From contig CP141133.1 of NCBI GenBank assembly GCA_035236585.1, positions 42,797,729 through 42,861,728 of the forward strand: a DNA stretch of 64,000 nucleotides, given 5' to 3'. How positions within the stretch are numbered: the stretch's first letter is position 1; each line of letters opens with the position of its first letter. The notes beneath the pieces were generated by a model that saw nothing but the letters and a program-made list of their open reading frames with translations, was not told where the DNA came from and made no database searches. The stretch comes from Warburgia ugandensis (Eukaryota > Streptophyta > Magnoliopsida > Canellales > Canellaceae). A program made the translations under genes and the position numbers. Below are positions 27,297 through 50,400 of the stretch, piece by piece.

Positions 27297-27354
<58 letters not shown>
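27297..27354 (+). repeat. (GA)n microsatellite, about 28 units, longest in window
   Basis: A pure GA run embedded in the satellite linker, followed by GAAGAAGATATTC. In the 17-kb paralogue the linker is far shorter, which shows rapid length change at the linker compared with the rest of the monomer. Confidence 0.97.
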
Positions 27355-27357
<3 letters not shown>

Positions 27358-28280
27358 AGATATTCAAAATGTAGGGTATTGTTTTGATAATGACACCCCA
27401 TCCCTCTGAAACTGCATCAGCACTGTGTCTAGGCCAGAAAAGGGTAGGCAACTCCCCTCTTTGGTAAAAAAAAAAAAAAGAGTGAGAAGAAGATTCAAAA
27501 TGCAGGAGGTCATTTTGATAACGACACCTCTCCCTCTGGCTCTGTGTTAGCATAACATCATCACTATCTCTGCACCAAAAAATGGTAGGTGCCACCCCAC
27601 TAGTAAAAAAAAGAAAAAGAAAAGAGAGATAAGAAGAGATGCAAAATGCATGGAATCATTTTGATAACGACACCCCCTCCCTCCTACACTACATCCGCTC
27701 TGGGCAAGAAAACTATAGGTGCCGCCCCTCTGTGGTCAAAGAGAGATGTAGGGGTCATTTTAGTAACGCCCCCCCTCGCTCCAACACTGCATCTGTGCTG
27801 AGAAATGGTAGGCACTGCCACTATCCTATCATAAAAAGAAGAGAGAGAGCAGAAAAGATTCAAAATGTAGGGGGTCATTTTGATAACGACAACTAGTCCC
27901 TATGACACTACATCAATGGCACTACACCAATGTCTCTAGCCCAAAAAATGGTAGGCGTTGCCCCTATCCTGTCAAGAAAATAAAAAAGAGATAGAAGAAG
28001 AGATTCAAAATGCAAGGGGTTGTTTCGATAACTACACCCGCTCCCTCTGACATTGCGTCAGTGTAGCATCACTACTGTCTGCATTTGAAAAGGGTAGGCA
28101 CTACCCCTCGCAAGTCAAAACTGGAAAACAAGAGAGAAGAATAGATGCAAAATGATGAGGGTCATTTTGGTAACGACACCTCCTCCCTCCGACACTACAT
28201 CAATGCTACGTCACCACTGCATCACCATTGTGCCTGTGTTGAAAAGAGGTAGGCACCGTCCCTCTCTAGTAAAAAAAAAC

Positions 28281-28314
<34 letters not shown>

Positions 28315-29755
28315 CAAGAGATTCAAAACATAGTGGGTCATTTTGATAACGACTCCCCATCCCTCTGACAATGGTCCAATGTTGCATCACCATCATGTCT
28401 GAGTCGAAAAAGGGTAGGTACCACCCCTCTCCAGTAACAAAAAAAGAGTGAGAAGAAAATATTCAAGATGTTGGTAGTTATTTTAATAATGAAAACCCCT
28501 CCCACAAACACTACATCAGCAGTGCATCACCATTGTATCTACATAGGAAAATGCCAGGAGTCGCCCTTCTCCGATTAACAAAATAAAAAAGAGCAAGGAG
28601 AAGAGATTCAAAATGTAGCGGGTCATTTTGATAATGACAGCCCCTCCCTTTCGACACTGCATCAGCACCACAACACCACTGGGTCACCACTGTGTCTGCA
28701 CCAAAAAAGCATAGGGACCACCCCTCTCCAATCAAAGAAAAAAAGAAACAAAGATGAACAGATTCAAAATGTAGGCGTTTTTTTTTTTATAACAACAGCC
28801 CCTCCCTATGACACTACATCAACTCTGCTTCACCACTATGCCTGCTTTGAAAAAGGGTTGGTGCTTCCCTCTCCAATAAAAAATAAAAGAAAGGGCAAGA
28901 AGAAGAGATTCAAAATGCAGGGGCTTGCTTCAATAACGACACCCCCTCCCTTGGACATTGCATTAGCATCTCACCATTACTACATCGTGTCTGCACCAGA
29001 AGAGCTTAGGCGACACCCCTCTCCCACAAAAAAAGAAAAATAAGAGATAAGAAGAGAATCAAAATACAGGAGGTCATTTTGATAACAACACCCCCTCCCT
29101 CGATCACTGCGTCAGCATTGCATCACCACTGTGTCTACACCGAAAAAGGGTACGCACTGCCCCTATCTGGTTAAGAGAGAGAGAGAGAGAAGAAAGAGAT
29201 TCAAAATGTAAAGAGTCATTTTGATAAGGACACCCCCTCCCAACGCAGCATCACCACTGTGTTTTCTCTTGAAAATGCCAGGCACTGTGCCTCTTCAGGC
29301 AAAAAAACTAAAAGTGAGAGAGAAGTGATTCAAAATAGAGGGGATTGTCTGGATAATGACACCCCATCACTTTGACACTATGTCAGTGCCGCATCACGAC
29401 CACATCATCATCGTTTCTGCACCGGAAAAGGGTGGGCTCCTACCCTCCCTAGGTAAAAAAACAAATAAAAGAGTGATAAGAAGAGATTCAAAATGCAAGG
29501 GGTCATTTTTTGTAACGATCCCCGCTCCCCCTTCAACATTGTGTTAGAGATGCATGACTCTATGTCACCACCCCATTTGCAGCAAAAATGGGCAGGCATC
29601 GTCCCTCTCCAGTAAAATAAAAAATAGAGAGAGATGCAGAGAGTCAAACACACAAGGGGTCGTTTTGATAATGATAGCCCCTCCCTTTGACACTGCATCA
29701 GTGCTGCATCACCACTGTGTCTATGCCAAAAAATGGTAGGTGCCATCCCTCTCCA

Positions 29756-29800
<45 letters not shown>

Positions 29801-30440
29801 AGAGGTTTAAAAAGCTAGTGATTATTTTGATAATGGCACCCACTCCCTCCAAAACTATATTGTGCCACATCACCCCTGTGTCTTCATTGGAAAAGGGTTG
29901 GCACCGCCACTCTCTGGTAAAAAAGAAAGAACAAACAAAGAAGAGATTCAAAATGCAGGAGGTTGTTTTCATAACGACAACCCAACCCTCCAACATTGAA
30001 TTAGTGCCACATCACTACTATATCTTCACAAAAAATGGGTAGGCATTGCCCCTCTCCCATGAAAAAAATATATATGGAGAGAGAAGAAGAGATTCAAAAT
30101 GCAGGGATCATTTTTTACAATGACACCCCCACCCTCTGGATTGCATCAGCGCCACTTCACCACCATGTCACCACCGTTTGCACTGAAAAATGGTAGGCAC
30201 ATTACTCCTCTTTGGTAAAAAAAAATAAAGAGAGGGAAGAAGAGATTCAAAATGCAGGGTGTCATTTTGATAACGACACCCCCTCCCTCCAACACTACAT
30301 TAGTGCCACATCACCACTATGACTATGCCGAAAAATGGTAGGCATCACCCCTCTCTACTCAAAAAAGGAAAAGAGAGAGAGAAGGAGAGATTCAAAAAGC
30401 AAGTGGTCAGTTTGATAACAACACCCCCTCCATCCAACAC

Positions 30441-32389
30441 TATAATAACCCCCATTTTTGTAAATTGATTAAGAAAATCAATTTAGCTTCAATCTTTTGA
30501 AATTTTAGGTTGGAATATTAGGTTATTGGAAATTCTCTTTTCATAGAGATCAAAGCATGATTTAAAACTTATAAATTATGAATGTACTTGAAAAATCAAT
30601 CGAAATGACATTAAGTACGTTCAATGAAAACCCCTAATTTTCTCCATTTTTATGAATAAAAGGGTAAAATAGTAATTTTGAGTTCAAAAGAATAAAATAT
30701 ATTTTTCTCCATAAAAGGGCAGAATGGTCCTTCCACACCTATGTGGGGACCACAAAGGGCACACAAATGAATCCAACCACCAGAAAACATGTAATGACTG
30801 GTCAAACCACTACTAGCTGATAGTGGAGAAGGAGGTCGTAGTGGGGGATCCAATGTTAATTTAATATTCAAATGAATTGAAACATAATTATTCCATGTAA
30901 TTATGAAAAATTCAAAAACATCTAAAAATACACCTCTAAAAATTTTCCAAAAATGTTCATTAAACTTTTTACAAAATTATCTTGCTTGCCCTAAAGAGAT
31001 GGATCACGACTTCAAGGTAGGAGGTTTTGATAAATGCATCTATGTGAGAAATACATGTTGAATACATGATCTTATGTCTAGAAATGTTGACAAGTGTAAT
31101 GTAAATACTTGTATTAAACCCATTGAAAACCCTTATGATCCAACCAAAACACATATGTAATGGTTAAGTTAGAACTGAGGAAAAAACTCTAAGTGAATAG
31201 GGAACTAGAAGATATTCCAGACCTAAGTAAACGGACAGATTGTCTGATACATATGAGAATTACTTTACAAACAAGCATGGAGGCTTGTGGTTTTCTTTTA
31301 AATAGGCATAGGCCTAGGGATGCTATGCTTGGAGAGTTAGTAGGGTTTTGCCACCCTCTCTCCGAACCTTGTTATTATATGGATACCAAGCCTAAATGAG
31401 GCTAAAAGTCGGGTGGGGCAGTTATGGGAAGGCTGCCACTGTGACAGTCATGGTCCTCCCTATATGGACATGGATATTGTGATTTCCACCAAGGATGGTA
31501 TAGGTGGATTATTGAGTAGTTATTCGGGCATGCTGGTATGGATTCTGACTCATGCATAGTAGTCTTTTGTGTATTTTTGCATTATGATGCATGGCATAGT
31601 GAAGTGCCTTATGATATGGCACGATGAGATGCTAGGTAACCGTCGATTACCAATAATACCCAAATGAGTGAGTATTTCTAGGAGAGTCTGGATGATTTAT
31701 CAACTCAGTATAAGTTGGGTATGATCATGTTTTGAGATCTTAACTATTTTTCACGATTTTGACTATATATATACATACACATAGCATACAGTATGTATGT
31801 GTAAGAATGTGCATATATGACAAAGTAAAAAGATTAATCCATCAGTATGAATAATGGGATTATGAAGTATTAGGATTATACTGTGAAATTTTTATGCTAC
31901 TTGAATCCCTTACCAAGCATAGCTTATTGAGATATTGTAAATGTTTTTCATGTTTACTACTCAGATACAAAGAAGGAGAATTAGGAGCTCAAGAGTTAGA
32001 GAAGACTTGGAAGAATAATCAATCAGGGTACAAACCTTGAAGACATGTATTTTATTTGATAGCATCGTATTATATTGAGAGTTTTTATTGTATGGTGTGT
32101 TTTGAAATTTGGATTATGTAATCTGGACAAGTATTGTAATGATACCTAGGTTGTACTATGAACCACTAGATGGATTCTAGAATTTAATAAAAGTATATTC
32201 CTTCAATGGAATTTTATCTTGTATAAAAATTCTACTTATGTTATGTATGAAGTGATGACTTGGGTTTTTCAAAACAAATTCTAAAGAAAAGAATTCGACT
32301 ACTTTGTTTTATAAAAATCTTTTGCTACTAAGGGCCCTGCCTTTGAAAAATGTATTACAAAATGTGTTACAAAAACCTAAGTCGTCACA
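30441..32389 (+). mobile_element. Solo LTR, full length (~1.95 kb), same family as 13406
   Basis: The segment starts TATAATAACCCCC (the TG start has become TA) and ends AAACCTAAGTCGTCACA. It is flanked by AACAC on the left and GACAC on the right, a 5-bp target duplication with one mismatch. Removing the element and one duplicate restores a normal monomer phase: CCAACAC continues into TGTGTAAGCGCC. The first ~550 bp aligns with the LTR fragments at 13406 and 16127; the rest is found only here. No coding region or second LTR is present, so it is a solo LTR fossil on the plus strand. Terminal sequences suggest Ty3; the clade is unassigned. Confidence 0.8.
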
Positions 32390-34037
32390 GACACTGTGTA
32401 AGCGCCGCGTCACCACTGTGTCTGCGCCGAAAAATGGTATGTGCTGCCCCTCTTCGATCAAAATAGACAAGAAAGGAGAGAGAGAAGAAGAGATTCAAAA
32501 TGCAAGTGGTCATTTTGACAATGACACCTACTCCCTCCTGCACTATGTCAGCGACACATCACGATAGTGTCCGCACTTGAAAAAGATAGGCGATGCCCTC
32601 TCTGATAAAAAAAAAAAAAGAGAGTGAGAGAGAAGAAGAGATTTAAAATGGTCAGGGTCATTTTAACAATGACCACCCCTCCCTCTAACACTGCATCAGT
32701 GCCGCGTCACCATTGTGCCGGCACAAGAAAATAGTAGGCATCCCCCTCTCCTGTCAAACAAAAAAAAAGAGTAAAGAGAAGAACAGATTCAAAATACAAG
32801 GGTCATTTTTTATAACAACACTTCCTCCCTCTGACCCTACATTAGTACTGCTTCAACACCGCATCACCACTATCTCCGCATCAAAAAATGGTAGGCATTG
32901 TCCGTCTTTGGTTAAAGAGAGAGAGAGAGAGAAGATGAAGAAGAAGAGATTCAAAATGTAGGGGATCGTTTTGATACTGACATCCCAACCCTCTAACATT
33001 GCATCAATGCCATGTCATTGTCGTGTCTACGTAAGAGAGGGGTAGCCGCCACTCCTCTCCCATTAACAAGAAAGAGAGAGAAGTATAGACTCAAAACATA
33101 GGGGATTGTTTTGATAATGACACTGCCTCCCTCCAACACTATGTTAGTACTACGTCACCACTGTGTCTACATTATAAAAGGGTAGGCACTGCCCCTCTCC
33201 AATAAAAGAGAGAGAGAGAGAGAGAGAGAAGAAGAAGAAGAAGAAGAAGAAGAGATTCAAAACATAGGGGGTTATTTTTATAATGAAACCCCATCCCTCT
33301 TACACAGTGTCAGTGTCGTGTCACCATCATGTCTCCAACGGAAAAGGACAGGTGTTGCCCCTCTCCAGTCTAAGAAAAAAAAAAGAGAGTGAGAGAAGAG
33401 ATTCAAAATACTAACACACCCTCCCTCCAACACTGCATCAGTAGCACATCACCACTGTGTTTGAGCCAAAAAATTGTAGGCACCGCCCCTCTCCAGTAAA
33501 AAAAAATAGAGAGAGAGAAGAAGAGATTGAAAACACAGCGGGTCATTTTGATAATGACTCCCATTCCCTCTGTCAGCACCACATCACCCCCAGAAAAGGG
33601 TAGGCACCGCCACTCTCCAGTCAAGAAAAAAAAACAGAGTTAGTGTCGCATCACCATTGTTTTGATAATGACAACCCCTCCCTCCGACATTGCATCAGTG
33701 CTGCATCGCTATTGTGTCTCCACCAAAAAAAGGGTAGGTGTCGTCCCTCTCCCATAAAAAGAAAAGATAGAGAGAGAAGTGATTCAAAAACACAGGGAGT
33801 AATTTTTCACTACGATACCCCCTTGCTTCGGCACTACATCAGCACTGCATCACCATTGTGTTTGCACCAAAAATTGTTAGGTGTCGCCCCTCTCCGATAC
33901 ACAGAGAGAGAGAGAGAGAAGAAGAGATTTAAAATGCAAGGGGTAATTTTGATAACGACACCCACTCCCTTAGACATCACATTAGCACCACGTCACCACT
34001 ATGTTAGCACTGAAAAATGGTAGGCATCGCTGGTCTC

Positions 34038-34082
<45 letters not shown>

Positions 34083-35850
34083 AGAAGAAGAAGAAGAAGA
34101 AGAGATTCAAAATACAGGATGTCATTTTGATAACAACACCCCTCCCTCTGAAATAATGTCAGTGCCACATCACCACAGTGTTTGCACTAGAAAAGGATAG
34201 GCACCTCCATCTCCGGTCAAGAAAAGGGAGTGAGAGAGAGAAGAAGAGATTCAAAATATGAGGGGTACTTTTGACAACAACACCCCACCCTCTAACACTA
34301 CATCAATGCCATGTCACCACCGTGTTCGTACAGGAAAATGGTAGGAGTTGCCCCTCCCCCGCCAAACAAAACAAAAAGAGTAAAGAGAAGAAGAGATTCA
34401 AAACGTAGGGGTCATTTTTTTTTTAACAACACCCACTCCCTCGGACAATGTGTTAGTGCCACTTCACCACCACATCACCACCGTCTCTATTCAAAAAATG
34501 TTAGGCACCATCCCACTCCAATAAAAAAAAAAAAAAAACAGAGAGAGAGAGAGGAGATATTCAAAATGTATGGGATCATTTTGATAATGACACCCGAGCC
34601 CTTTAACACTGCATCAGTGGCATGTCACCACTATGTCTACATTAGAAATGGGTAGGAGCTACTTCTTTCCAACAAAAAAAAAAATAGAGAGAAGAAGAGA
34701 TTCAAAATGCAGGGGTCATTTTGATAATGGCACACCCTCTCTCCAACATTGCATCAATGCCTCATCATGACCGTGTCACCACTATGTCTGTATCGTAAAA
34801 GGGAGGCACCACACCTCTCTAGTAAAGAGAGAGAGAGAGAGAGAGAAGAAGAAGAAGAAGAAGAAGCAGAAGAAGAAGAGATTCAAAATGTTGGGGGTCA
34901 TTTTGAAAATGACACCCCATCTCTCTTACACAGCGTTAATGCCGTATCACTATCTTATCTTCGTCGAAAAAGCACAGGTGCCGCCCCTCTCCAGTAAAAA
35001 TAATAGAGAATGAGAAGAAGAGATTCTAAATGCTGGGGTCATTTTGATAATGACACACCCTCCCTCTGACACTGCATTAGCGGCATGTCACCACTATATC
35101 TGTGCTCAAAAATGATAGGCACCGCCCTACTCTGGTAAAAAAAAAAAATTAAGAGAGAGAGAGAGAGACAGAAGAAGAGATTCAAAAGACAAGGGGTCAT
35201 TTTGACAATGACACCCCCTCCCTCCGAAACTACGTCAGCACCACTTCACCCCTCTGTCTTCACTAGAAAAGGGTAGGCGCTGCCACTCTCTGATCAAACA
35301 AAAAAGAGGAGTGAGAGAAGAAGAGATTCAAAATGTAGGAGGTTATTTTGATAATGATGACCCCTCACTCTGACATTGCATCAGCATCGTGTCATCACCG
35401 TGTCTGCACTAGAAAATGGTTGGTGTCACCCCTCCCCCATAAAAAATGAAAGTAGAGAGAGAGAAGAAGAGATTCAAAACGCAAGGGGTCTTTTTTTACA
35501 ACAATACCCTCTTCCTTTAACATTGTGTCAGTGCCACTTCACCACCGTATCACCGCTGTGTCTGCGCTAAAAAATGGAAGGTACTCTCCCTCTCCGATAA
35601 AGAGAGACAGAGAGAGAGAGAGAGAGAGAAGAGATTCAAAATGCAGGGGGCATTTTGATAACGACACCCTGCATTTTGATAACGACACCCCCTCCCTTCG
35701 ACACTACATTAGCACCACGTCATCACTGTGTCTCTGCCAAAAAAAGATAGGTGTACCCCTGTCTGGTAAAAAAAAAAACAGAGAGAGAGAAAATAAGAGA
35801 TTGAAAACTGAGGTAGTTGTTTTGATAACGACACTCCTTCCCTCCGAAAT
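32390..35850 (+). repeat. Satellite array, forward block 4
   Basis: About 24 forward monomers. Two tandem higher-order copies of about 1.6 kb can be followed: 32.6-33.3 kb pairs with 34.2-34.9 kb, sharing a monomer with a TTTTTTATAAC core and a (GAA)n linker at about 33228 and 34845. At 35650-35690 the 20-bp core GCATTTTGATAACGACACCC occurs twice in a row within one monomer. The block ends in GAAAT at the Tekay insertion. Confidence 0.94.
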
Positions 35851-37813
35851 TGTGAGGACCCGAGTTTCATATGATGCAAATTTCATCAAAAGGCGAGATC
35901 TCTTGTTTTAGAAATATGAAATGCATGAAAATATTTTGTTTTGGAAAGCAATCTTGCGTATTAAACCCCTAGTGTCAAAACACATTTTCAAATCATATAG
36001 CCATGGCATAGTTTTAAATCAACTCCATCCCCAAGAAAGTGTTACTCACAGCCCCAGCTATAGAGAGTAACTACAATCAAGTAACATTCACTAAAAGATA
36101 AGGTAGGGGTTTACTTACTTGTACTTAATTTGGATGTTCTCTGTCACGGGTGTATCCTATCCTTAAGTGTTTACTTGTATCTGAAAAATATTAAGGATTG
36201 GGTGAGTATACACTATACTCAGTAGGAGTCTATCACTATTAGTTTTACAATGCATGCTATGTTTTAAACCATATGTTCTTTAAACCATGTGCATGTTTGG
36301 ACACTCATGTTCAATATCAATAATAAAAGCCATTGTCAAAATAGAATACTAACGACTTAAAGAATCGCATAGTCCAATTCAAAAGTAACATAGATATCAT
36401 AAACATATACTATGATATGCATAAGATGCTCAACTGAATCTAACTCATGGATCTATGGTCGACCATACTCATGTCATGCCATATGCATGCAAGTAAATCC
36501 TCAAAAACATAGGGCACACTATGCCCACGACCTTAGCGCCATGTGGTCCCCAGATACCAGGGGACTCTTGGTCATAGCCTCCACGGGGCATATGACACTT
36601 CGACGGGTGCCATGACACCTCCAGTGATAGTCCTCGTTCACCACAGCAATCGAAGTGACGACAAGCCTTTTTGGCGTGGTACCCTTTCCACCTATAGTGG
36701 TAGAGGCTGGGAGGCCACCCCGAACCTCTCAGCATAGCACCCACGAGCTTACTAGCCCAAATCATATACTATTAAGTAGGCAAGAACCTCTTCTTTTTTT
36801 TCACAAACATGTCTATGCATGTATCATGCAGACAAGAATCGTTTTTCAAAACATGTCTATGCATGTAACACATGTCTTGGCAATATATTTGTAGTGTATT
36901 TTTCATATGCATGCTAAGTTCATTTATGAAATCAATTCATACTAAACAGGTCATGTGCATAAGGATGTAACATAAGTTTATATGATATACGCATAAAGAC
37001 AGGACATGTAACTGAAAAGCTTTAAACATGCATTAGAAAAGCAACCATGACTCAAAACATGCATTCTCAAAGCATCATGGGTTCTTTTTAAAAGTCCAGT
37101 AGCGATAGGACACCTACCTCAATTGTCGTCATTTAGCTTGTGTCCCTCTTGTAGACGAGTCCTAGAGTACCTTTACGATTCCTGTATATCATTTAAACAT
37201 GAAATCTAATCATGATTTCTAGCCCTAGCCCGCACGCAAGCCTGAGTTATGCACTGGGACGCACGTTTTAGAGAGCATCGCGTGAGCGCGTCCTCAGCGA
37301 CAGGCGCGTGCGTCTCAACTCCCTGAATGCTCCATGCATCCCGGTCGAGCAGGGACTGCGCCCGTACATGACGCGGGTGGGCCAGTCACTCTAGGGGGCG
37401 TGTTTCTCATGCGCATCACGCACTGCGTCCCAGGGTTTTCCCTGGTTCAAAAAAGCTGGGTTTTTACCCAATTTTCTCCGGCATTTTCCAGCCACAAATG
37501 CCCAGATCCGGTGAAGATCTGGGCTGGGAGAAGAGAAAACGAAGGTGAAAGAAGTGGGGACTTAGCCAGGGCAGTCTGGAATGACCCATTGCCTATGCGC
37601 TGGTGATGCTCCCTTTTCCACGCTGAAGCCTTGGTCGCCGGAAACACCAAGAGGGAGGTGAAGAGAGAGGAATGGCCGGCCTATCGGGAAAACTCGGGCC
37701 TGGCCGGAACTTGCAGGGAAAACTAAATGAGGATTTTCTAATTTTTCTGTAAACCCTAGCTCGATAGCCAGAGACAGGGAAGAGGAGATGATCGGAGGAA
37801 GAGGGAGAGGGGG

Positions 37814-37821
37814 TTTTTATA
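37814..37821 (-). promoter_or_regulatory. TATA box of Tekay 3' LTR
   Basis: The minus strand reads TATAAAAA within CTCTATAAAAACCCC. It lies about 440 bp inside the LTR from its U3 end, a normal place for the retrotransposon promoter, with purine-rich and GC-rich sequence around it. Transcription would start near 37785-37790. Inferred from sequence only. Confidence 0.55.
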
Positions 37822-37953
37822 GAGGGTGAAAGGCAGAGCTGCCAATGCCAGTGCCGCCATTTCCCCTGGCACCGCCTTGTAGAGGCGGTGCTGGTGTTTC
37901 TAGAAAAAGCAAGGGAGGGGTGTTTCTGGAGAAATAGGGAGAAGGAAGAAGAT

Positions 37954-38010
37954 AGGGAGTGCCATTATCAAAATGGCCCCCTACGTTTTTCATCTTTTTC
38001 TTATTTTTTT
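37954..38010 (-). repeat. Satellite-like core inside Tekay U3
   Basis: The plus strand reads GTGCCATTATCAAAATGG then CCCCCTACGTTTTT then ATCTTTTTCTTAT. Reverse-oriented satellite monomers, for example at 59361-59405, have the same order: GTGTCATTATCAAAATGA, CCCCCTACGTTTTT, ATCTCTTCTTAT. About 41 of 46 positions agree by eye, including the dyad, the C-run and the start of the pyrimidine linker. It is the only satellite-like monomer piece that I see inside this LTR. Confidence 0.75.
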
Positions 38011-38258
38011 AAAGATAAATTACAAAATTGCCCATAATCTATAAACGGCCGTAACTTCTTCATATGAACTCTGTTTTCAGCGTTCTTTGAGGCGTTGGAT
38101 TCCTTTTTCCGAGATGCACCTAAGGGTACCATTCTAAGGACCAAATTTCTGGGTCTAGTCAGGGTGAATAGTGAAATGACCAAAATACCCTTATCTCAAA
38201 AAGTGAACTTTTCATTACCAACATGGGATTTCAAGGTTACAAAAATGGAGTCATTACA

Positions 38259-38271
38259 TTCTTACCCCCTT
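38259..38271 (-). promoter_or_regulatory. Polypurine tract
   Basis: The minus strand reads AAGGGGGTAAGAA immediately before the LTR start TGTAATGACTCC. This is the expected plus-strand priming site of an LTR retrotransposon and fixes the inner edge of the 3' LTR. Confidence 0.85.
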
Positions 38272-38309
38272 AAGGGAATTTTACCCCCAAAATTCTACAA
38301 TATATACAG

Positions 38310-39026
38310 TCAAAAGATCTCGGGGTACTTTTCTCGCATTTCTAACTCCGGTTCCCAAGTCTCTTCTTCCATGTGCTCATTTCTCCACAAAACTTTGATT
38401 AAGTGTATGTCTTTGTTCCGCAGCTTCCTACTCTTACAATCTAGAATCTCAATTGGTCTCGTCTCTAGCTTGAGATCCTCCGTCAACTCTATGGGTACAT
38501 GGGTGATGACATGAGCAGGGTCAAGCACGTACCACCTTAGCATAGATATATGAAATACGTTATGCACTTCAGATAGCTGAGGGGGTAGTGCGATCCTGTA
38601 GGCCACTTTTCCCACTTTCTCCAGGATTTCAAAAGGTCCTATGTAACATGGACTAAGCTTGCCTTTGATACCGAACTGCATAACTCCTTTAGTGGGAGAT
38701 ATCTTCAGGAAAACGTGCTCTCCTATGTCGAATTCTAATGGTCTCCTCCATTGATCAGCATATCTCTTTTGCCAACTTTGAGCTATGAGGAGGCATTTCT
38801 TTATGAGTTTGACCTTCTCAGCGCATTGCTCCACCAGCTCGGACTGTAGCACCCTAGACTCTCCAACTTCACTCCAATTGGTGGGTGATCGACAAGGTCT
38901 CCCATAGAGCGCCTCGTACGGAGCCATGCCAATGCTCAACTGAAAGCTGTTGTTGTACATGAACTCCACTAGCGGCAGGTTTTCATCCCAGCTATGCTTC
39001 CAATCGAGGGCACACGCTCGCAGCAT
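38310..39026 (-). pseudogene. Tekay integrase C-terminal part with GPY/F and chromodomain-like end
   Basis: A 238-residue segment. Residues ~15-47 (NLPLVEFMYNNSF and MAPYEALYGRPCRSP) are the end of the integrase catalytic core. Residues 129-146 carry the GPF...VGKVAYRIALP signature of the GPY/F module. Residues ~190-238 (PIEILDCK, IHLIKVLWRN, ETWEPELEM) are the chromodomain-like tail that in chromoviruses is linked to insertion into heterochromatin. The tail is what supports the Tekay/Del assignment. Part of a broken element; not a host gene. Confidence 0.9.
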
Positions 39027-39407
39027 ATCTTCAACTATCTAGATCATGCGCTCTAACTGTCCATCGGTTTGTGGATGGAAGGTTGTGCTAAAGTTCAAGG
39101 AAGATCCTAAGGATTTTTGGACAGACTTCTAGAGTTGTGAAGTGAAGCGGCTATCCCTATGTGAAGTGATACTAAGGGGTATGCCATGTAAACTCACTAT
39201 CTCTTTGATGTATAGCTAAGATAGTCTGTAAGTGGATTGGGTATGGCGTATAGGAAGGAAATGGGCTGTCTTAGTCAATCTATCAACAATTACCCAAATC
39301 ATGTCATGACCCTTAGAGGTCCTGGGTAACCCTACAATGAAGTCCATGGTAATATGATTCCATTTCCATTCGGGTAACTCAAGAGGTTGTAAGAATCCCG
39401 TAGGTCT

Positions 39408-39602
39408 TTAATGTTTGGCCTTTACTTGTTCACATGTTAGACACTTTGCAACAAATTCCCCTATGTCTCTTTTCATACCATCGCACCAATATTGTCTTTT
39501 TAAGTCTTGATACATCTTAGTTCCTCCCGGGTGTATAGTATATTTAGACCGATGAGCCTCTTTTAAGATTTCTTGTCTTAATTCTTCATTAGTCGGTACC
39601 AC
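39408..39602 (-). pseudogene. Tekay integrase zinc-binding (HHCC) domain
   Basis: A 64-residue segment with HRSKYTIHPGGTKMYQDLK followed by CLTCEQVKA, the H-H-C-C zinc-binding pattern at the integrase N-terminus. It lies between RNase H and the catalytic core as expected in Ty3 elements. The stretch 39027-39407 holds the decayed integrase core. Confidence 0.88.
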
Positions 39603-39677
39603 TAATCTTCCTTACATGTAAACGTTACCATCTTCCCCTTTAGTAAACCTTGGTCTTCCTATTAAAGCTTGTATGTC

Positions 39678-39941
39678 CTAATCCCCTTGCTGTGCTTGCT
39701 TAACCTTTTCATTAACAGCCAACTTTATCGTTAGACCTGCCATAATGATCTTGCGCTTACTTATGTCTGGTTTCCACGTTATTACTTCTTGTAATAGCTT
39801 CCATCCCTTAGTTAATAAACTTGCACACATCCCTTGGGTTTTTCTACTTAATGCATCAGCTACCACATTAGCTTTTCCAGGGTGATAATGAATGGAGAAG
39901 TCATAGTCTTTTAAGTATTCTATCCATCTTTTCTGTCGCAT
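39678..39941 (-). pseudogene. Tekay RNase H end and linker
   Basis: An 87-residue segment starting [20 protein letters not shown] and continuing [13 protein letters not shown], the near-universal end of the Ty3 RNase H domain. The rest is the linker toward integrase. The part of RNase H nearer reverse transcriptase is recognisable in decayed form up to about 40290. Confidence 0.88.
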
Positions 39942-40456
39942 GTTTAAGTCTTGTTGAGAAAAGATATATTTAAGACTCTTATGATCTGTGAAAACTTCAA
40001 ACTTTTCCCCATATAGATAATGTCTCCAGATTCACAAGGCAAAGACTATGGCTACTAATTCCAAGTCATGGGTTGAGTAATTGACTTCATGCTTCTTGAG
40101 TTGCCGAGAAGCATAAGCAATTACCTTCCCATGTTGCATAAGTACGCAGCCTAGTCCTTGTTGCAAGGCATCGTTGTATATCTCAAATCCGCCACTTCCT
40201 CAAGGTAAGGTAAGGATAGGTGCTGTAGTTAACCTTCTCTTTAGTTCCTGGAAGCTTTCCTCACATTTATCAGCCATTCAAATCTTGCGTCTTTCCTGGT
40301 CAGCTTAGTTAAAGGTAAAGGAATTCATGAAAAACACTCGATGAATCTCCTGTAATATCCGGCAAGTCCTAAGAAGCTTCTTATTTCTGTGAACATCTTA
40401 GGTCTTTCGCATTTCTATACTGATTCAACCTTAGTGGGGTCGATTGCTATGCCATC

Positions 40457-40930
40457 TTAAGAAATAATGTGTTCGAAGAAATTAACCTTTTCTAGCCAAA
40501 ACTCACACTTACTATATTTTGCATATAACTTGTGTGCTTGTAGGGTGCTTAATGTTATCCTTAGATGTTGCTTATGGTTTTCAGGAGTTTCTGAATATAT
40601 CAAGATATCATCCACAACCACTATGATGAATTTGTCTAAGTACTCCTTGAACACCCTATTGATGAGGTCCATAAACACGGTTGGAGCATTCGTTAAACCA
40701 AAGGACATTACTCTGAATTCATGATGGCTGTATCGAGTCCTGAAGGCTGTCTTGGGGATATCTTCTTCTCTAACTCGAAGTTGATGGTAGCTGGATCCTA
40801 GATCAATCTTAGAGAAGACTCTGGCTAATTGAAGTTGATAAAAAAGATCATCAATTCGGGGAAGGGAGTACTTATTCTAAATGGTGACCCTATTTAGCAT
40901 CTGATAGTCTACGCACAATCTCATGGAGAC
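40457..40930 (-). pseudogene. Tekay reverse transcriptase core
   Basis: The best-preserved part (40457-40708) contains [19 protein letters not shown] and the active-site motif VDDILIYS (around 40595-40615), followed by [12 protein letters not shown] and KYSKCEFW. Decayed upstream sequence to about 40930 still resembles the earlier reverse transcriptase motifs. Fossil coding sequence. Confidence 0.9.
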
Positions 40931-41035
40931 ATCCTAGAGATAAGAATAGGTGGGAAGTGCCTGGCCTATAGGAGTCATGACTTCTAGAGTGAAGTCCAGG
41001 TCCTGTGGTATAATGTCCAAGGTTGATGGAAACTC

Positions 41036-41572
41036 CTAGGATATGAAAGAATGAGTGGAGCCTATATCGAATAGAACTTTAGCAGGTGTATCATAGATAG
41101 AAAGAATACCTTCAACTACTGCATTTGAAGCCTGGGCTTGACTGGAAGTGAGGGCAAAGACACGTCCTTGGCTCTTTGGAACCTGATCTTCTTTACGCTC
41201 TTCAACTTTCCTTTTAGGACAATTCCTAGCAAGATGTCCTAATTCTCCACAAGTATAACAAGTGATGTTGAAAGTAGGACATAGTTTGCCTGAATGATTC
41301 TTGTTACACCTAGGGCATGTCTTCCAGTCTGGCCTTCTTCCTTTGTTTTCAAATGTCTTCTTGAATGGTGGCCTGAGTCTAGATGAATGAAATGATCTCT
41401 TTCCTTTATTTCTCATGGTGTTGGTATTCTTAGTTTCCTTTATCGCTTGATTCCTTTGATAATCTTTTTCGTATAGGGAGGCCATCTCTACGGCTTTGGC
41501 TACGGTGGAAGGTTGGAAACCTACAACTCTGTTCCTGAGTCCTGGGTTGAGCCCATCTACAAATCTTTCCAC
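41036..41572 (-). pseudogene. Tekay gag C-terminal part, zinc knuckles and protease start
   Basis: A 178-residue segment. Residues 1-40 are capsid end (FVDGLNPGLRNRVV). Residues 86-98 form a first cysteine-histidine cluster (CPRCNKNHSGKLC), 105-118 the CCHC knuckle CYTCGELGHLARNC. Residues ~166-178 (VLFDIGSTHSFIS) match the aspartic protease start, which in plant Ty3 elements is usually D-T/S-G-A/S. Two neighbouring clusters of this kind are typical of Tekay gag. Broken element. Confidence 0.9.
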
Positions 41573-41896
41573 CGCATCTTCCTCATCAGGACAAGCATGT
41601 GGTGCAAATCTTCAGAGGCCAATGAATTTATTTTCATACTATTGGACAATCATGTTTCCTTGTTCTAAGTCCATAAATTATTTTTCCTTCTATTTTCTTA
41701 TGTGTTTAGGATAATATTTGTCATTAAAGACCTTTTTAAATTCTTTCCATCCTATTCTTTCTTGCTGGTCAAAATAAGTCCTTCCCACTGTTTCCCACCA
41801 AAAGGTAGCCTCTCCTCTAAACACAAATGTGGCCACGGGTACCTTTCTTTCTTCAGCTATGTTCATGGCTTTAAATATCTTTTCAATATGAATTAA

Positions 41897-42163
41897 CTAT
41901 TTTTCAGCTGTAGATGCTTCATCTTCTCCTGTGAATGAGGGAGCTAATTTCTGAAACCTTTCTAACTGAACCTCAATCCTATCTATTGCTTTATCAGGGG
42001 AAGGATCTCGTCTGGTAGGGGTTTGGGTTTGTTGATTACTCATGTATTGTTCCATATGTTGTGGGAATCGCTGGAATAATTCAGCCATCCCATTGCCCGA
42101 CCCAGTGGAGTCCACTGGTGGGGCTTCCAGTCTTGGAGCATCGCTTACATTCTTTCTAGGCAT
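41897..42163 (-). pseudogene. Tekay gag N-terminal part
   Basis: An 88-residue segment with a starting Met at 42163, 127 bp after the primer site. It ends with QLERFQKLAPSFTGEDE, which resembles the F-x-G capsid entry motif of chromovirus gag. The region 41573-41896 between this and the zinc-knuckle segment still resembles the capsid middle but is decayed. Confidence 0.82.
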
Positions 42164-42289
42164 ATGTAAATCACAAAGTAATTCGCAAGACCTTAGTATG
42201 TGTTATCATATTACCCCTTAATCTTTCATGGATGAAACTTGATTATATGTTATTCTCCTCATAACTGGGCTGTGAGTAATGTCAAACCG

Positions 42290-42302
42290 GGCTCTGATAC
42301 CA
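42290..42302 (-). promoter_or_regulatory. Primer binding site, initiator-Met tRNA
   Basis: The minus strand reads TGGTATCAGAGCC starting 2 bp inside the LTR end (CGTCACA). This is the standard complement of the 3' end of plant initiator-Met tRNA used by Tekay and many other plant Ty3 and Ty1 elements. It fixes the LTR edge at 42305 and the element's orientation. Confidence 0.95.
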
Positions 42303-42304
42303 AC

Positions 42305-42630
42305 TGTGACGACCCGGGTTTCATATGATGCAAATTTCATAAAAAGGCGACATCTCTTGTTTTAGAAATATGAAATGCATGAAAATCTTTTGTTTTGGAA
42401 AGCAATCTTTCATATAAAACCCCGAGTGTCAAAACACATTTTCAAATCATATAGCCATGGCATAGTTTTAAATCAACTATATTCCCAAGAAAGTGTTACT
42501 CACAGCCCCAGCTACAGAGAGTAACTACAATCAAGTAACATTCACTAAAAGATAAGGTAGGGGTTTACTTACTTGTACTTAATTTGGATGTTCTCTGTCA
42601 CGGGTGTATCCTGTCCCTAAGTGTTTACTT
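42305..42630 (-). repeat. Tekay 5' LTR, partial (326 bp)
   Basis: From TGTGACGACCCGGG it follows the 3' LTR for 326 bp, with about 15 differences by eye, and then gives way to reverse-oriented satellite beginning in its pyrimidine linker. The neighbouring satellite polarity is opposite to that on the other side of the element, so the junction at 42630 is a rearrangement point and not an insertion edge. Confidence 0.88.
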
Positions 42631-44931
42631 CTCTTTTTTTTTTTATTAGAGAGGGATGGCGCCTCTCCTTTTCTGGCACAGACGTTGTGGTGCTACAATG
42701 TTAGAGGGAGGGGTGTCATTATCAAAATGGCAGCCTTCATTTTGTATCTCTTCTTCTCACTGCACTTTTTTTTTTACCAGAGAGGGGTGACGGCTACACA
42801 TTTCTATCACAGACACGGTTGTGATGTAGCACTGATGCAATGTCAACGGGGGGTGTGATTATCAAAACAACCCCTTTCATTTAGAATCTCTTCTTCTTTC
42901 TCCTTTTTTTTTTCCTAGAGAGTTGTTGGGCCTACCCTTTTCTGGTGTAGTAATGGTGGTGACATGGCGCTAACGTAGTGTCAGAGGCAGGGGTGTCACT
43001 ATCAAAAAGACCCCATGCATTTCAAATCTCTTCTTCTCTCAATTTTTTTCTTAACAGGAGAGGGGTGGCGCCAACTCTTTTCCAACACAAACATAGTGGT
43101 GACACGGCACAGATGAAGTGTCAGGGGGAGTGTGTGTCATTATCAAAATGACCCTCTGTGTTTTGAATCTCTTCTTCGCTCACTTTTTGTTTTGACTGAA
43201 GAGGAGCAGCGCCTACCCTTTTTCGTCACAGACACGATGGTGATGCAACACTGGTGCAATGTCAAAGGATGGGGTCTAGTTATCTAAATGACCCCCTGCA
43301 TTTTGAATTTCTTCTTCTTCTTCTTCTTTTTATCAGAGGGGCGATGCCTACCCTTTTTCAGCATAGACACGGTGGTGAAGCAGCACTGACGAAGTGCGGA
43401 GGAATAGGATATCATTATCAAAATAACCCCCTACATTTTGAATCTCTTTCTCTCTCTCCCTCTCTCTCTCTCTTGACTAGAATTGGGTGGCGCCTACCCT
43501 TTTCCAGTGTAGGCATGGTGGTGATGCAATGGTGACACATTGATGGCGCAATGTCGGAGGGAGGGGCTATCATTATCAAAATGACCTCCTACATTTTGAA
43601 TCTCTTCTTCTCTCTCTCTCTCTCTCCTTTTTTTTTTTACTAAGAGGGGTTCCACCTATCGTTTGCTAACATAGACATGGTGGTGATGCGGTGTTGGAAG
43701 AATAGTGTGTTGTTTTCACAATGACCCTTTGTGTTTTTAATCTCTTCTTCTCTCCCTCTCTTTTTTTTACTAGAGAGGGGCAGCACTTACACTTTTTTGA
43801 CACGGACACAATGGTGACATGGCACTTGTGCAGTGTCGGAGGGAGGATGTGTCGTTATCAAAATGTACCCCTACATTTTGAATCTCTTCTTCTCTTGCTC
43901 TCTCTCTCTCTCTCCTTTTTTGACCGAAGAGGAACGGGGCTTACCCTTTTCTAGTGCAGACAAAGGGGTGATGCAGTGCTAATGGAGTATCCGTGGCAGG
44001 CTATCATTATAAAAATTACCCTCAGCATTTTGAATATCTTCTTCTCTCTCTCTATTTTTGTTTTTTTGACCAAAAAGGGTTGACTCCTACCCTTTTCTGT
44101 CACAGACACAGTCGTGACTCTGTGCTGAAGTAGTGTCGGAGGGATGCGGTGTCATTATCAAAACGACCCCCTGCATTTTAAATCTCGTCATCACTCTCTT
44201 TTTCTTTTACTAGAGAGGGGTACTGTCTATCCTTTTTCGACGCAAACACAGTGGTGATGTGTCGCTAACGCAGTGTCAGAGGGAGGGGTGTCTTTATCAA
44301 AATGATTGCCTACATTTTGAATCTCTTCTTCTTTTTACCAGAGAGGGGCAGCACCTACCCTTTTCTGGGTAGACATCATGGTGACATAGTGGTGATGCAA
44401 TGCTAAGGCAGTGTCTGAGGGAGAGGGTGTCGTTATCAAAATGACCCAGTGTGTTTTGAATCTCTTCTTCTCTCTCTCCAATTTTTTTTGTCAAGAGAGG
44501 GGCGACGCCTACCCTTTTGTTGTGCAGTCACGGTGGTAACATGACGCTGATGCAGTGCCAGATGGAGGGGCTGTCGTTATTAAAATGATACTCTGCATTT
44601 TGAATCTCTTCTCTTAATTTTTTTCTTGACAGGAGAGGGGTGGCCCCTACCTTTTTTCGACATAGATATGTGGCAACACACCACTGATGCAGTGTTTGAG
44701 GGAGGGAGTGTCATCATCAAAATGACCCCTTATGTTTTGAATTTGTTCATCACTCCTTTTTCTTTTTTTTGACTATTGATGGGCGGCGCCTACACTTTTC
44801 CATTGCAGACACGATTGTGACATGGCACTAACATAGTGTTACAAGGAGTGGGTGTTGTTATCAAAATGACCCCTGTGTTTTGAATCACTTCTTCTCCTCT
44901 CTCACGTTTTTATTAAAGAGGGGTAGCACCT
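42631..44931 (-). repeat. Satellite array, reverse block 1
   Basis: About 16 monomers in reverse orientation (pyrimidine linker, then GAGAGGGGCGGCGCC, then TTATCAAAATGACC and TTTTGAATCTCTTC). 42640-43710 matches 59990-61085 monomer by monomer, including CATTTAGAATCTC, TTCTTAACAGGAG and TTCCACCTATCGTTTGCT. It ends at the duplicated pentamer CACCT of the solo LTR. Confidence 0.94.
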
Positions 44932-46007
44932 TGTGACGACCCGGGTTTTATATGATGCAAATTTCATAAAAAGGCGAGATCTCTTGCTTTAGAAATATGA
45001 AATGCATGAAAATATTTTGTTTTGGAAAGCAATCTTTCGAATAAAATCCCGAGTGTTAAAACACATTTTCAAATCATATAGCCATGGCATAGTTTTAAAT
45101 CAACTCTATTCCCAAGAAAGTGTTAGTCACAGCCCCAGCTATAGAGAGTAACTACAATAAAGTAACATTCACTAAAAGATAAAGTAGGGGTTTACTTACT
45201 TGTATTTAATTTGGATGTTCTCTTTCACGGGTGTATCCTGTCCTTAAGTGTTTACTTGTATCTAAAAAATGTTAAGGATTGGATGAGTATACACTATACT
45301 CAGTAGGAGTCCATCACTACTAGTTTTACAATGCATGCTAGGTTTTAAACCATATGTTCTTTAAACCATGTGCATGTTTGAACACTCATGTTCAATATCG
45401 ATATTAAAAACCATTATCAAAATAGAATACTGACAACTGAAAGAATCGCATAATCCAAGTCAAAAGTAACATAGATATCATAAACATATACTATGATATG
45501 CATAAGATGCTCAACGAAATCCAACTCATGGATCTATGGTCGACCATACTCATGTCATGCCATATGCAATGCAAGTAAATCCTCAAAAACATAGGGCACA
45601 CTATGCCCACGACCTCATTGCCGTGTGGTCCCCGGGTACCTAGGGACTCTCAGTCATAGCCTCCATGGGGCATATGACACTTCGACGGGTGCCGTGACAC
45701 CAGTGGTAGTCCTTGTTACCACACAACAATTGAAGTAAGGACAAGCCTTTTTGGCGTGGTACCCTTTCAACCTATAGTGGTGGAGGCTGGGAGGCCACCC
45801 CAAACCTCTCGACATAGTGCCTAGGAGCTTACTAGCCCAAAAGCATCTAAAGATAAAGCCAAAGCTCAATTATCGCAAATCATGCAGTTTATGCAATCGG
45901 TTGCAAAACATGCATGCAATGCATTAAATCTGCTCATGCCAATATCACATTCAAAGTCATAACCCTGCCTAGAAGCTTCCTAGCCTAGAAGCCTGTCAGC
46001 TCTCTCC

Positions 46008-46050
46008 GGCGCGCCCTCATCGGCCCGCCCTCATCAGCCCGCCCTCATGG
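46008..46050 (+). repeat. Three tandem ~15-bp units in solo LTR
   Basis: GCGCCCTCATC, then GGCCCGCCCTCATC, then AGCCCGCCCTCATG follow one another, GC-rich against an AT-rich background. The Tekay 3' LTR has unrelated sequence here. Just upstream CCTAGAAGC is also repeated. Confidence 0.85.
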
Positions 46051-46789
46051 GCCAAGGCTACACTTTTCAAAACATGTCTATGCATGTAACACATGTCTTG
46101 GCAATATATGCGCAATGTATTTTTCATATGCATGCTAAGCTCATTTATGAAATCAATTCATGCTAAACAGGTCATGTGCATAAGGATGTAACATAAGTTT
46201 ATATTATATATGCATTAAGACAGGAAAAGCAACCATGACTCAAAACATTTATTCTCAAAGCATCATGGGTTCTTTCTAAAAATCTAGTAATGATAGGACA
46301 CCTACCTGGTTTGATCGCACTAGTCCCCTTGTCCTCGTATGTTCCTGGACATGGTTTAGGGGAAAAGGTTAGCTTGGCCTATTTCTATAGGTTCTAGAAT
46401 AGTTTACCTCACTACTTAGGCATTAAGGGTCCATTCTCATGCCTAAGGGCCTCCTAAGGTCCCTAACTGGGCCTTAGTATTGTCGGGTTTGCAAAGGTTT
46501 AGTGGCCCCGGGCGACTACCATGGTTTAAGGGTCATGCCAGCCTTAGGTAGGGGCTTGATTAGGTATTTTATGGATGAGGTGTGTCCGTGCCATCGATAC
46601 GGACACAACGCCTCTCACGGCACCTCAATCGGAGTCCTAGAACTCAAGTTATGGGTATTTTAGTGTTAAGAGTACATAAAAGTCCCAAAATGGGTCTTGC
46701 GTCATCGCTTCCGGGACGCACCTACGTCCTGGTCGAGCTGCGACTGGCCTGCACGTGCGGTCGCACGCTCCTGGGCACAACCAGGGTGC

Positions 46790-46811
46790 GCATTCTGCTT
46801 ATGCAGAATGC
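46790..46811. repeat. Perfect inverted repeat in solo LTR
   Basis: GCATTCTGC and GCAGAATGC are separated by four bases (TTAT), a 9-bp perfect stem in the GC-rich part of the U3/R region. No such hairpin appears in the Tekay 3' LTR. Function unknown. Confidence 0.85.
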
Positions 46812-47243
46812 ACGGTGTCATCGTAGCAGTCCCACACGAGCTGGTCCTGCATCAGCGACACGCACCCCACAAGGCATCTGCTGACGCCCCAGGCTTTCCG
46901 CCCCTTTTCTCGTTTGCGGGTGCGTCTGCCTTTAACTCATTCGGCTCGTTTTGGTCTTGTGGTGACCTGGGCATCCTCGAGACGCCCTAGTTCTACCCTG
47001 TCAAACCAGAACGCCCCAGGCATCTGTCCTGGGTTTGTTGTGGCTCCCTACAGCCCTCTTTTGCATGGTTTCTCATGCCAAAACTTAGGGATATTCAACC
47101 TAAGACTGAGGAGATGGGTTCGGAGTTGTTTAAGGGGTACCTAGTTCGTGGCTGGGTATTTCTCGCGTTTTGTCCTCTTGCCTGCCACTCCATGATTGGT
47201 TTTTTCTAGGCTTTCGGGCTGCCATTGGAGGCGCCTAAGAGCT

Positions 47244-47251
47244 CTATTTAT
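47244..47251 (-). promoter_or_regulatory. TATA box of solo LTR
   Basis: The minus strand reads TATAAATA inside CTCTATAAATAGAGC, about 200 bp from the U3 end of the LTR. This is a strong plant TATA context. With the element body gone, any transcript would run leftward through the rest of the LTR into satellite. Inferred from sequence. Confidence 0.6.
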
Positions 47252-47383
47252 AGAGCTTACAGAGGGTTCTGGAGGGGCGTTTCTACTGCCATGGAATGGC
47301 AGTGGAGAAACCTCCAGAATGGCGGTGGTTTCTCTCCTGCACACCAACATTCTAGAATGTCGGTGATGTAGTACGTTTGGGAA

Positions 47384-47412
47384 GAAGGGGGTGCCCGTAT
47401 CAAAACGGATAC
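47384..47412 (-). repeat. Diverged satellite-like dyad at U3 end of solo LTR
   Basis: The plus strand reads GGGGGTGCCCGTATCAAAAC then GGATAC. Satellite monomers have GGGGGTGTCGTTATCAAAAC then GACCCC. It sits 40 bp from the LTR end, on the same side as the satellite-like core of the Tekay LTR. Upstream GTCGGTGATGTAGT also recalls the satellite GGTGGTGATGTAGTG. Similarity is short and weaker than in the Tekay LTR. Confidence 0.5.
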
Positions 47413-47452
47413 TAACATGGGATTTCAAGGTTACAAAAATGGAGTCATTACA

Positions 47453-50400
47453 CACCTACCCTTTTTTTGTCCAGACACAATGGTGATGCGGCACTGACTG
47501 GAGAGGGCTGTCGTTATCAAAATGTCCCCCTATGATTTGAATCTCTTCTTCTCTCTCTCTCTCTCTCTTGACCAGAGAGGGGTGACACCTACCCTTTTTT
47601 GTCTTAGACATGGTGGTTACGTGGCACTGACTTTGTGTTGGACAAATGGGGTGTCATTATCAAAATGACCCTTGAATTTTGAATCACTTCTTGACTCTCT
47701 CTCTTTTCTTTACTAGAGCAGAGCAATGCTTATCATTTTTCGATGCAGACACAATGGTGATGTGGTGCGATGCAGTATTGGAGGGAGGGGGTGTTGTTAT
47801 CAAAATGACCCCTTGCATTTTTAATCGCTTCTTCCCTCTTTTTTTTTTTTTTTGATAAGAGAGCGGTGGAACCTACCCTTTTCGGTGCAAGCATAGTGGT
47901 GACACTATGGTGATGCGGCACTGATGTAGTGTCGGAGGGAGGGGGTGTCGTTATCAAAATGACTCCCTATGTTTTGAATCCCTTCTTCGCTCCCTTTTTT
48001 TTTATCAGAGAGGGGTGGTGCCTACCCTTTCCCATTGTAGAAACGATTGTGACACGACGCATGTAGTGTCGGAGGGAGAGGGTGTCGCTATCAAAACAAA
48101 CCTGTGCATTCTGCTCTCTTCTTCTCTCTTCTTTATATTTTAGACAAAGAGCAATTGTGCCTACCATTTTTTGGAACAAAAATGGTGCTGATGCAGCGCT
48201 AAAGCAGTGTCGAACGGATAGGATATCATTATCGAAACCACCCCTTGAATTTTGAATCTTCTTCTGTCTCTCTTTTTTTTTTTACTTGAGTTGGGCAGCA
48301 CCTACCCTTTTCTGGCTTTGACATGATGGTGATGTGGCATTGATGCAGTGTTGGAGGGATGGGTTGTAGCTATAAAATATATCTGCTACATTTTGAATCT
48401 CTTCCTCGCTCTCTCTCTCTCTTTGACCAAAGAGGGGTGGCACCTACCATTTTCCCACATAGACACGGTGGTGATGCGGCGTTAATGCAGTATCAGAGGG
48501 AGGGGTGTTGTTATGAAAATGACCCACTTTGTTTTAATCGCTTCTTCACTCTCTATCTCTTTCTTTTTACTAGAGAGGGGTGACACCTACCCTTTTTCGG
48601 TGCAGACACGATGGTGATGTAGCACTAGCACCATGTCAGAGGGAGGAGTTGTCGTTATCCAAATGAGCCCTTGCATTTTGAATCTCTTCTTCTCTCTCTT
48701 GTTATTATTATTTTTTATTGAAGAGGGGCGCCGCCTTCCCTTTTCACACAGAGACAAAGCTGACACGGTGTCAGAGGGAGGTGTTATCATTATGTAAATG
48801 AACCCCTGTGTTTTGAATGTATTTGTCCCTCTCTCTTTCTTATGATGGGATAGAGGCGGCACCTACCCTTTTCCCTCGTAGACATAGTGGTGATGCAGCG
48901 CTGACACAGTGTTAGAGGGAGGGGTGTCATTATGAAAATGACCTATTGAATTTTTGAATCTCTTGCTCTCTCTCTCTCTCTCTCTCTCTCTCTTTACTAG
49001 AGAGGGGCGGTGCCTACCCTTTTTAGGAGCAGACATGGTGGTCACGTAGCACTGATGTAGTGTCAGAGGGAGGGGGTGTTGTTTTGAATTTCTTCTTCTC
49101 TATAATTTTTTTTTTACCGAAGAGGGGGCAGCGCCTAACCGTTTTTGGTGCAGACATAGTGGTGATGCTGTGCTAAAGTAGTGTCGAAGGGAGGGGCTGT
49201 CATTATCAAAAAGACCCCTAGCATTTTGAATCACTTCTTCTATCTCTCTCTTTTTTTGACTGGAGAGGTGTGACACCGAGCCTTTTCCTAGTTGAGATGC
49301 AGTGCTGATGCAGTGTTAGAGGGATGGGGTGTCATTATTAAAACGAGCCGTGTGTTTTGAATCTTTTCTTCACTCTCTATTTTTCTTTTTGATTGGAAAG
49401 TGCCAGTACCTACACTTTTCTGTTGCAGACATGATGGTGACGGGGAGCTAAAGTAATGTCGGATGGAGGGGTTATCGTTATCAAAACGAACCCTTGCATT
49501 TTGATTCACTTCTTCTTTCAATTCTTTTTTCTTGACTGGAGATGGGAGGTGCCTATCCTTTTTCTCCATAGAAAAGTGGTGACAAGGCACTGACACAGTG
49601 TCAGAGGGAGGGGGTGTCGTCATCAAAATGACCCCTTGTGTTTTGAAAGTCTTCTTCGCTCCCTTTTTTATTGACCAAAGAGGGGCAGTGCCTACCCTTT
49701 TCCATTGTAGACACGGTTGTCACATGGTGTTGATGCAGTGTCAGAAGGAGAGGGTGTCATTATCAAAACAAATCCCTGCATTATGATGTCTCCTTCTTCC
49801 TTTTTTATTTATTTATAAAGAGCGGTCGTGCCTACCATTTTTTGACTCATAAATGGTGGTGACGCAGCACTGAAGCAGTGTTTGAGGGATAGGATATCAT
49901 TATCAAAAATAGCCCCTAAATTTTGAATCTCTTCTTCCCTCTCTTTTTTTTTTCTTGACCTAAGTTGGGCAGCACCTACCCTTTTCCGATGTTGACACGG
50001 TGGTGACGTGGCGCTAATGCAGTGTTGGAGGGATGGGTTGTAGCTATAAAAAACACCTCTTGTATTTTGAATCTCTTCCGCTCTCTCTCTCTCTCTTTGA
50101 TTGGAGAGGGGTGGTGCCTACCATTTTCCTACATAGACACGGTGGTGATGCAGTGCCGATGCAATGTTAGAGGGATGGGTGTTGTTATCAAAATGACCCG
50201 CTGTGTTTTGAATCTCTTCTTCTCTCTCTCTCTCTCTCTCTCTTTACAAGAGAGGGGTGATACCTACCCTTTTTCGAGGCAAACACGATGGTGATGCAAT
50301 GCTAACACCGTGTCAGAGGGAGGGGTTACCATTATTCAAATGAGTCCCTGCATTTTGAATGTCTTCTTCTCTCTCTTATTATTATTATTTTTTACCGAAG

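Follow-up and report, generated by a model that had tools for sequence, protein, structure and literature searches.

In a 64,000-bp stretch of the Warburgia ugandensis genome, a short segment in the U3 of a retrotransposon long terminal repeat (LTR) resembles the monomers of the satellite around it, which raises the question of whether the satellite was amplified from an LTR, an LTR captured satellite, or the two have only a short functional site in common. The whole stretch, referred to here as the window (G000:C8:42797729-42861728), belongs to a 1.12-Gb assembly of 14 contigs and consists mostly of satellite with monomers of about 142 bp, 140 bp being the commonest length. The features that bear on the question are the following.

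1..35850, minus strand: satellite array with the box on the minus strand, monomer length about 142 bp.
35851..38258, minus strand: 3' LTR of a Tekay-like chromovirus (Ty3/gypsy), an insertion in the satellite array (ends and a PPT-like stretch read; LTR pair).
37814..37825, minus strand: TATA-like element (TTTTTATAGAGG in antisense), some 140 bp away from the box (sequence read).
37954..38010, minus strand: LTR U3 stretch homologous to the monomers, comprising the box and a T-rich right flank (HMM score and alignment).
37959..37981, minus strand: 23-bp palindromic U3 box GTGCCATTATCAAAATGGCCCCC with C-type arms, core of the common module (dyad read).
38259..42304, minus strand: decayed internal region with RVP_2, zinc knuckle, RT, RNase H, SH3_Tf2-1 and a weak Chromo domain (domain matches).
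42305..42630, minus strand: 5' LTR of the same chromovirus, truncated (95% identical to 35848-36176).
42631..44931, plus strand: satellite array segment in the opposite orientation (array reading).
44932..47452, minus strand: related solo LTR in satellite (92% identical to the first LTR over 914 bp; CACCT on both sides).
47453..64000, mostly plus strand to about 61 kb with some minus near 53-54 kb, then minus: satellite array (array reading).

Outside the element the satellite forms head-to-tail arrays, whose orientation changes several times along positions 1-64000; one of these switches coincides with the inserted element, at 35.85-42.63 kb. By its coding domains the element is a Ty3/gypsy chromovirus: RVP_2, zinc knuckle, RT, RNase H and a Tf2-1-type SH3 lie above cut-off, and Chromo (E 0.0011) falls below its own. 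The name Tekay was the label of the original prediction, and the domains indicate only a chromovirus. The second LTR (42305-42630) is 326 bp long and gives way at once to satellite, which suggests that the element was broken once it had inserted. The solo LTR is bordered by a perfect 5-bp target duplication (CACCT, 44927-47457) inside a satellite monomer. It was therefore inserted into the array, and LTRs of this group entered an array that already existed. Elsewhere, at G000:C1:50047754-50066074, four U3 matches follow one another in one orientation at 6.03-kb steps, which looks like a tandem LTR-retrotransposon array.

The resemblance between the window LTR and the satellite is well beyond chance. 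Positions 37954-38010 and the satellite at 59357-59418 are identical at 51 of 55 aligned positions in a gapped alignment. On a profile (HMM) built from 250 window monomers, whose mean pairwise identity is 67.5%, the LTR stretch aligns over 49 positions with 33.5 bits (E 1.8e-10); among 100 dinucleotide shuffles for each of 10 sequences (3.04 Mb) no score exceeds 11.8 bits. Agreement had been put at about 41 of 46 positions: the match is real, and the figure itself comes down to 39 of 46 ungapped columns around the box. The statement that the LTR has one copy and the satellite hundreds agrees with counts made by the left or right linker alone, which give 329 and 334 monomers, respectively, with LTRs excluded. 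Seven other LTRs found with the window stretch reach 32.2-36.6 bits on the same profile. What this LTR and its kin have in common with the monomer is limited to the box and some 20 bp to its right (about 50 bp of ~142). The arms of the box also differ, being T-type in the satellite and C-type in the window LTR.

The box recurs in LTRs throughout the genome. The exact C-type box of the window has 308 copies (reversed control 0) and the T-type box of the satellite has 296; among the first 30 of the matches listed for each, all on C1, the C-type copies lie outside arrays in 30 of 30 cases, and the T-type copies divide into 11 outside and 19 inside. A looser form, GGTGNNNNTATCAAAANNNNNCC, occurs at 18,045 sites, satellite copies included (control 3). 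Its arms are of three kinds: TCATT/AATGA and kin, CCGTT/AACGG and kin, and a slid CCCGT/ACGGG. The last is the kind found in the window solo LTR, whose slid variant at 47388-47408 lies in a U3 that scores 11.2 bits on the satellite HMM, not above shuffles. Twenty of 100 listed GGTGNNNNTATCAAAANNNNNCC sites, picked to cover the types, were inspected by eye, and 18 stand in plain U3; L101 is diverged, and L104 stops short some 60 bp beyond the box. A further diverged box, at L052:2510-2560 (C1:77.34 Mb), lies about 0.9 kb from an array end in surroundings unlike those of other U3s. Across 72 box sites (from the window LTRs and the LTR pieces fetched, with two entered twice and some pieces too short to hold the site) a TATA-like site lies 60-260 bp to one side in 51 (shuffled 2/72), at a median of about 110 bp from the box where found, and a U3 motif lies on the other side in 62 (shuffled 1). 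A search of viral contigs for the box returned 0 matches, and a limited literature search found no published description of it.

LTRs were also sampled independently of the box, with the neighbouring stretch 38025-38240 as query, and 20 of 39 other matches were fetched. Absence of the module from other copies, or satellite-insertion scars in this one, had been named as signs against an LTR origin. Seven of the 20 carry the window form of the box, 12 have the slid variant and lack the satellite-like right flank, and one retains the right half only, so that on the first point the copies are divided. No scars are seen, and the surroundings of the stretch are the U3 common to other copies. The module is likewise present, as expected for an LTR source, in other U3s away from arrays, including contigs on which no array was seen, and the direction originally proposed, from LTR U3 to satellite, agrees with this.

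Which LTR supplied the rest of the monomer is a separate matter. Among T-, C- and S-type LTRs, no left flank out of 68 matched the linker (shuffles 18 of 1360), and the four right flanks of 68 that did so scored below zero bits (shuffles 195 of 1360). Anchored extension in the same LTRs placed 5 of 68 left flanks and 42 of 68 right flanks above the 99% null (slid type 0/10), and in a further linker comparison 11 of 83 exceeded the 95% null, several being CT-rich, with the reversed control higher. LTRs at large thus gave no clear linker match, and a particular subfamily was therefore sought. Twenty further T-type sites outside the main blocks were screened, where L119 and L120 proved to be arrays. 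The LTR at locus L117 matches the linker as well as the box (59.4 bits, profile positions 22-142; shuffling its left flank 500 times gives no score above 43.7). Forty more T-type sites yielded L168 (49.8 bits) and L136 (92.9 bits). The latter (C4:10417379-10417729) is an orphan monomer piece with no block seen around it, and its position outside the blocks indicates that pieces of satellite do move about.

A search for sequences like L117, independent of any likeness to the satellite, gave 40 scored matches on 13 of the 14 contigs. The subfamily set (n = 23) comprises 20 of the 39 matches other than L117, together with L191, likewise taken for its likeness to L117, and L117 and L168, which had been noticed by satellite score. 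A match to the whole monomer is present in 20 of 20 fetched copies (42-68 bits) and in L191 (65.7 bits), the lowest copy, at 42.1 bits, being no higher than a box-only LTR may reach (43.5). With the box removed from the profile, the linker is still recognized in every one of the 23 subfamily U3s, at 6.0-26.4 bits and E 3e-9 to 0.007, and has no match in the 137 other LTR flanks (from 136 loci), in 920 shuffles or in the two window LTRs; arrays, L136 and the duplicates L001 (the window's own LTR) and L009 were left out of the 137. The subfamily copies have the organization of a U3. In the 21 besides L117 and L168, a U3 motif follows the box in all 21 and a TATA-like site precedes it in 14 (loosely 16). 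No more than one TATCAAAA occurs in 20 of these 21, the second one in L191 being upstream of the U3, and the 421-bp pieces of subfamily copies hold a single unit and no dimer. L191:1032-1200 (C13:14.265 Mb), within the span of the C13 cluster and not in an array, has a long (CT)n run right of the box, and L182 has a CT-rich run in the same place, as in the satellite. No tblastn match to a coding region was obtained in 2.5 kb beside two copies, which may be decayed or non-autonomous.

These results speak strongly against one part of the original prediction, that the source was the window's own Tekay family. The LTR-satellite match itself first suggested such an origin, but the linker matches neither of the two window LTRs nor the 137 other sampled flanks, the C-type arms of the window LTR are set against T-type arms in the satellite, and the whole monomer resides in another dispersed LTR subfamily. 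Amplification from the window's own family is consequently the most improbable of the readings considered.

The limits of the unit can be read in LTRs and satellite alike. In the subfamily the left edge takes the form GGCTRACYRGAGA with small changes, readable by pattern in 14 of 22 LTRs at 88-95 bp before the box, and right of the box many copies have CCTTTTTGAATTT or something comparably T-rich. In the six LTRs where both could be read, the left edge and the TTTTTGA to the right of the box lie 131-134 bp apart in five and 117 bp apart in the sixth, where TTTTTGA matched nearer the box. In the satellite, the T-run begins, before GAYYRGAGAGG, at a median of 97 bp from the box (range 81-125, 14 junctions); the ACYRGAGA that comes after it represents the left edge GGCTRACYRGAGA, and the T-run corresponds to the T-rich stretch right of the box. 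The edge spacing of 131-134 bp and the commonest monomer length of 140 bp therefore indicate that the satellite junction joins the T-rich stretch to the left edge. With a second pattern, 80 window junctions could be read, in which the T-run stands directly before ACYRGAGA in 53, G precedes it in 18 and other letters in 9. A TGA microhomology at the joint, suggested by some monomers, is thus not general, the G fitting only these 18. The LTR-like joint TTTTTGAYYRGAGAAAGGGG had 0 matches in a genome search, so that no living intermediate was detected. At L010:1384-1560 (C1:31.44 Mb), two tandem copies of an 88-89-bp U3 unit span the box. This duplication illustrates such an event but is not the ancestor, since both its subfamily and its unit are different.

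A tree of 38 monomers, 23 subfamily U3s and 18 other LTR U3s (ultrafast bootstrap) unites the monomers in one clade, and monomers and subfamily in one clade against the other LTRs (bootstrap 100 each). Identity of the satellite is 55% to the subfamily and 49% to other LTRs, or 50% and 40% left of the box. The close relation between satellite and subfamily is thus firm. The maximum-likelihood tree places the satellite inside the subfamily, next to L191 (89), and an alternative in which the subfamily forms a clade of its own is not rejected (AU p = 0.35). The direction from LTR to satellite, with a donor subfamily other than the one originally named, is the best supported, mainly by parsimony: every one of these LTR types has the box, whereas the linker is confined to the satellite and one sampled subfamily; the subfamily copies taken have a single unit; and the edges of the satellite map to two points within a U3 that extends beyond them in both directions.

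The opposite direction would have an ancestor of the L117 subfamily take a monomer into its U3 by recombination at the common box and then spread it. Such captures of satellite by elements have been reported, for pDv and TCAST (PMC3648361); the tree permits the subfamily to form a separate clade next to the satellite, L117 carries additional sequence on the left side of the box in comparison with other T-type LTRs, and the orphan piece at L136 lies outside the blocks. However, two captures would be needed, because the box is also found in other LTR lineages, and the subfamily pieces contain one unit where no dimer is seen. Moreover, the 38 sampled monomers form one clade with no LTRs inside it, and right of the box the L117 LTR alignment continues into the sequence of other LTRs. 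Capture is accordingly unlikely. Far less likely again is a relation confined to the box, either as a functional host-protein site gained independently or as one passed on by gene conversion. Conservation within the monomer is highest in the box and the next 24 bp (86%, vs 75% and 71% elsewhere), and LTR arms of different sequence stay complementary, both of which would fit a functional site, but the homology of the box-free linker in 23 of 23 subfamily U3s extends past any such site.

Complementarity of the arms was assessed in LTRs and satellite. Over 100 LTR sites, 333 positions pair, vs a maximum of 303 in 5000 shuffles that re-pair the arms; for the main class, taken as 36 unique strings, the observed pairing is reached by 13 of 5000 shuffles, and the slid class alone has no pairing excess (203 of 5000). 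The arm pairs of the satellite (of 317) are T-A 250, T-G 30, C-A 15 and C-G 1, without covariation. Selection for an RNA or DNA hairpin was considered and rejected: most changes are in CpGs decaying in parallel, descent confounds the comparison, and the satellite arms do not covary. Our guess is that the box is a protein site in the promoter. More speculatively, and on balance doubtfully, it could be an old selected cis-element of chromovirus U3s, with the arrays as blocks of hundreds of promoter boxes that bind or titrate the same host factor, hence the good preservation of the box in a monomer of otherwise 67% identity.

Exact words peculiar to the satellite are clustered in the genome, in contrast to the dispersed box, and this counts in favour of an LTR origin. 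One set gave 55 matches, on C1, C3, C5, C8, C10 and C13; a second gave 16, on C3, C5, C8, C10 and C13; and a third gave 16, on C3, C8, C9, C10 and C13. Arrays were read as DNA on C1, C2, C3, C8 and C9; on C5, C10 and C13 they are indicated by word clusters. In all, blocks would occur on about eight chromosomes. The remaining contigs lack these exact words but may still contain satellite. The word clusters on several contigs would be compatible with a putative centromeric satellite. A higher-order repeat on C3, suspected from 2.1-kb spacings, was not borne out.

Taken with good confidence, the satellite is the product of tandem amplification of one ~130-bp promoter-adjacent U3 segment from a Tekay-like LTR subfamily with L117 as its type locus. 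A first tandem duplication, by slippage, template switch or illegitimate recombination, would have brought the T-rich stretch up against the left edge. The unit may then have spread by unequal exchange or rolling-circle copying into blocks on ~8 chromosomes, and may have reached ~142 bp as its CT and T runs lengthened. The window element would be a cousin with the same ancestral box that was inserted into the array later, and this later insertion would account for LTR and satellite lying side by side.

Several known systems, as far as the cited sources describe them, are comparable. In maize, CRM1TR and CRM4TR are tandem repeats from a Ty3/gypsy LTR region into whose arrays retrotransposons later inserted (PMC3648361). 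However, their units span LTR and UTR (PMC3648361) and 97% is shared with the element (PMC12596083), whereas here a short U3-internal piece, ~55% alike, is found on ~8 chromosomes. The sobo repeat of wild potato is also an LTR-related plant satellite but has a 4.7-kb monomer on one chromosome (PMC3648361). The monomer of rodent RPCS resembles a U3 with promoter elements; by contrast, that U3 is retroviral and the monomer is 348 bp long (PMC3648361). In Lathyrus sativus, dispersed retrotransposons give rise to a short array, which has expanded at a few sites and which pre-exists inside the element (PMC7004042), whereas the subfamily copies here hold a single unit. LTR segments of jujube CRJ similarly contribute to tandem-repeat-like structures, but CRJ is of the Athila lineage and is accompanied by CENH3 data (PMC12596083), while the satellite described here is known from its sequence.

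LTR-derived satellites are already well known, and what is added here is the finding of the donor subfamily in the same genome. The locus illustrates a trap, since the closest LTR to the array is a different one from the donor; it also draws attention to a widely conserved palindrome in LTR promoters. With the satellite traced to a particular U3 segment and the donor still present, the step from promoter segment to array becomes testable.
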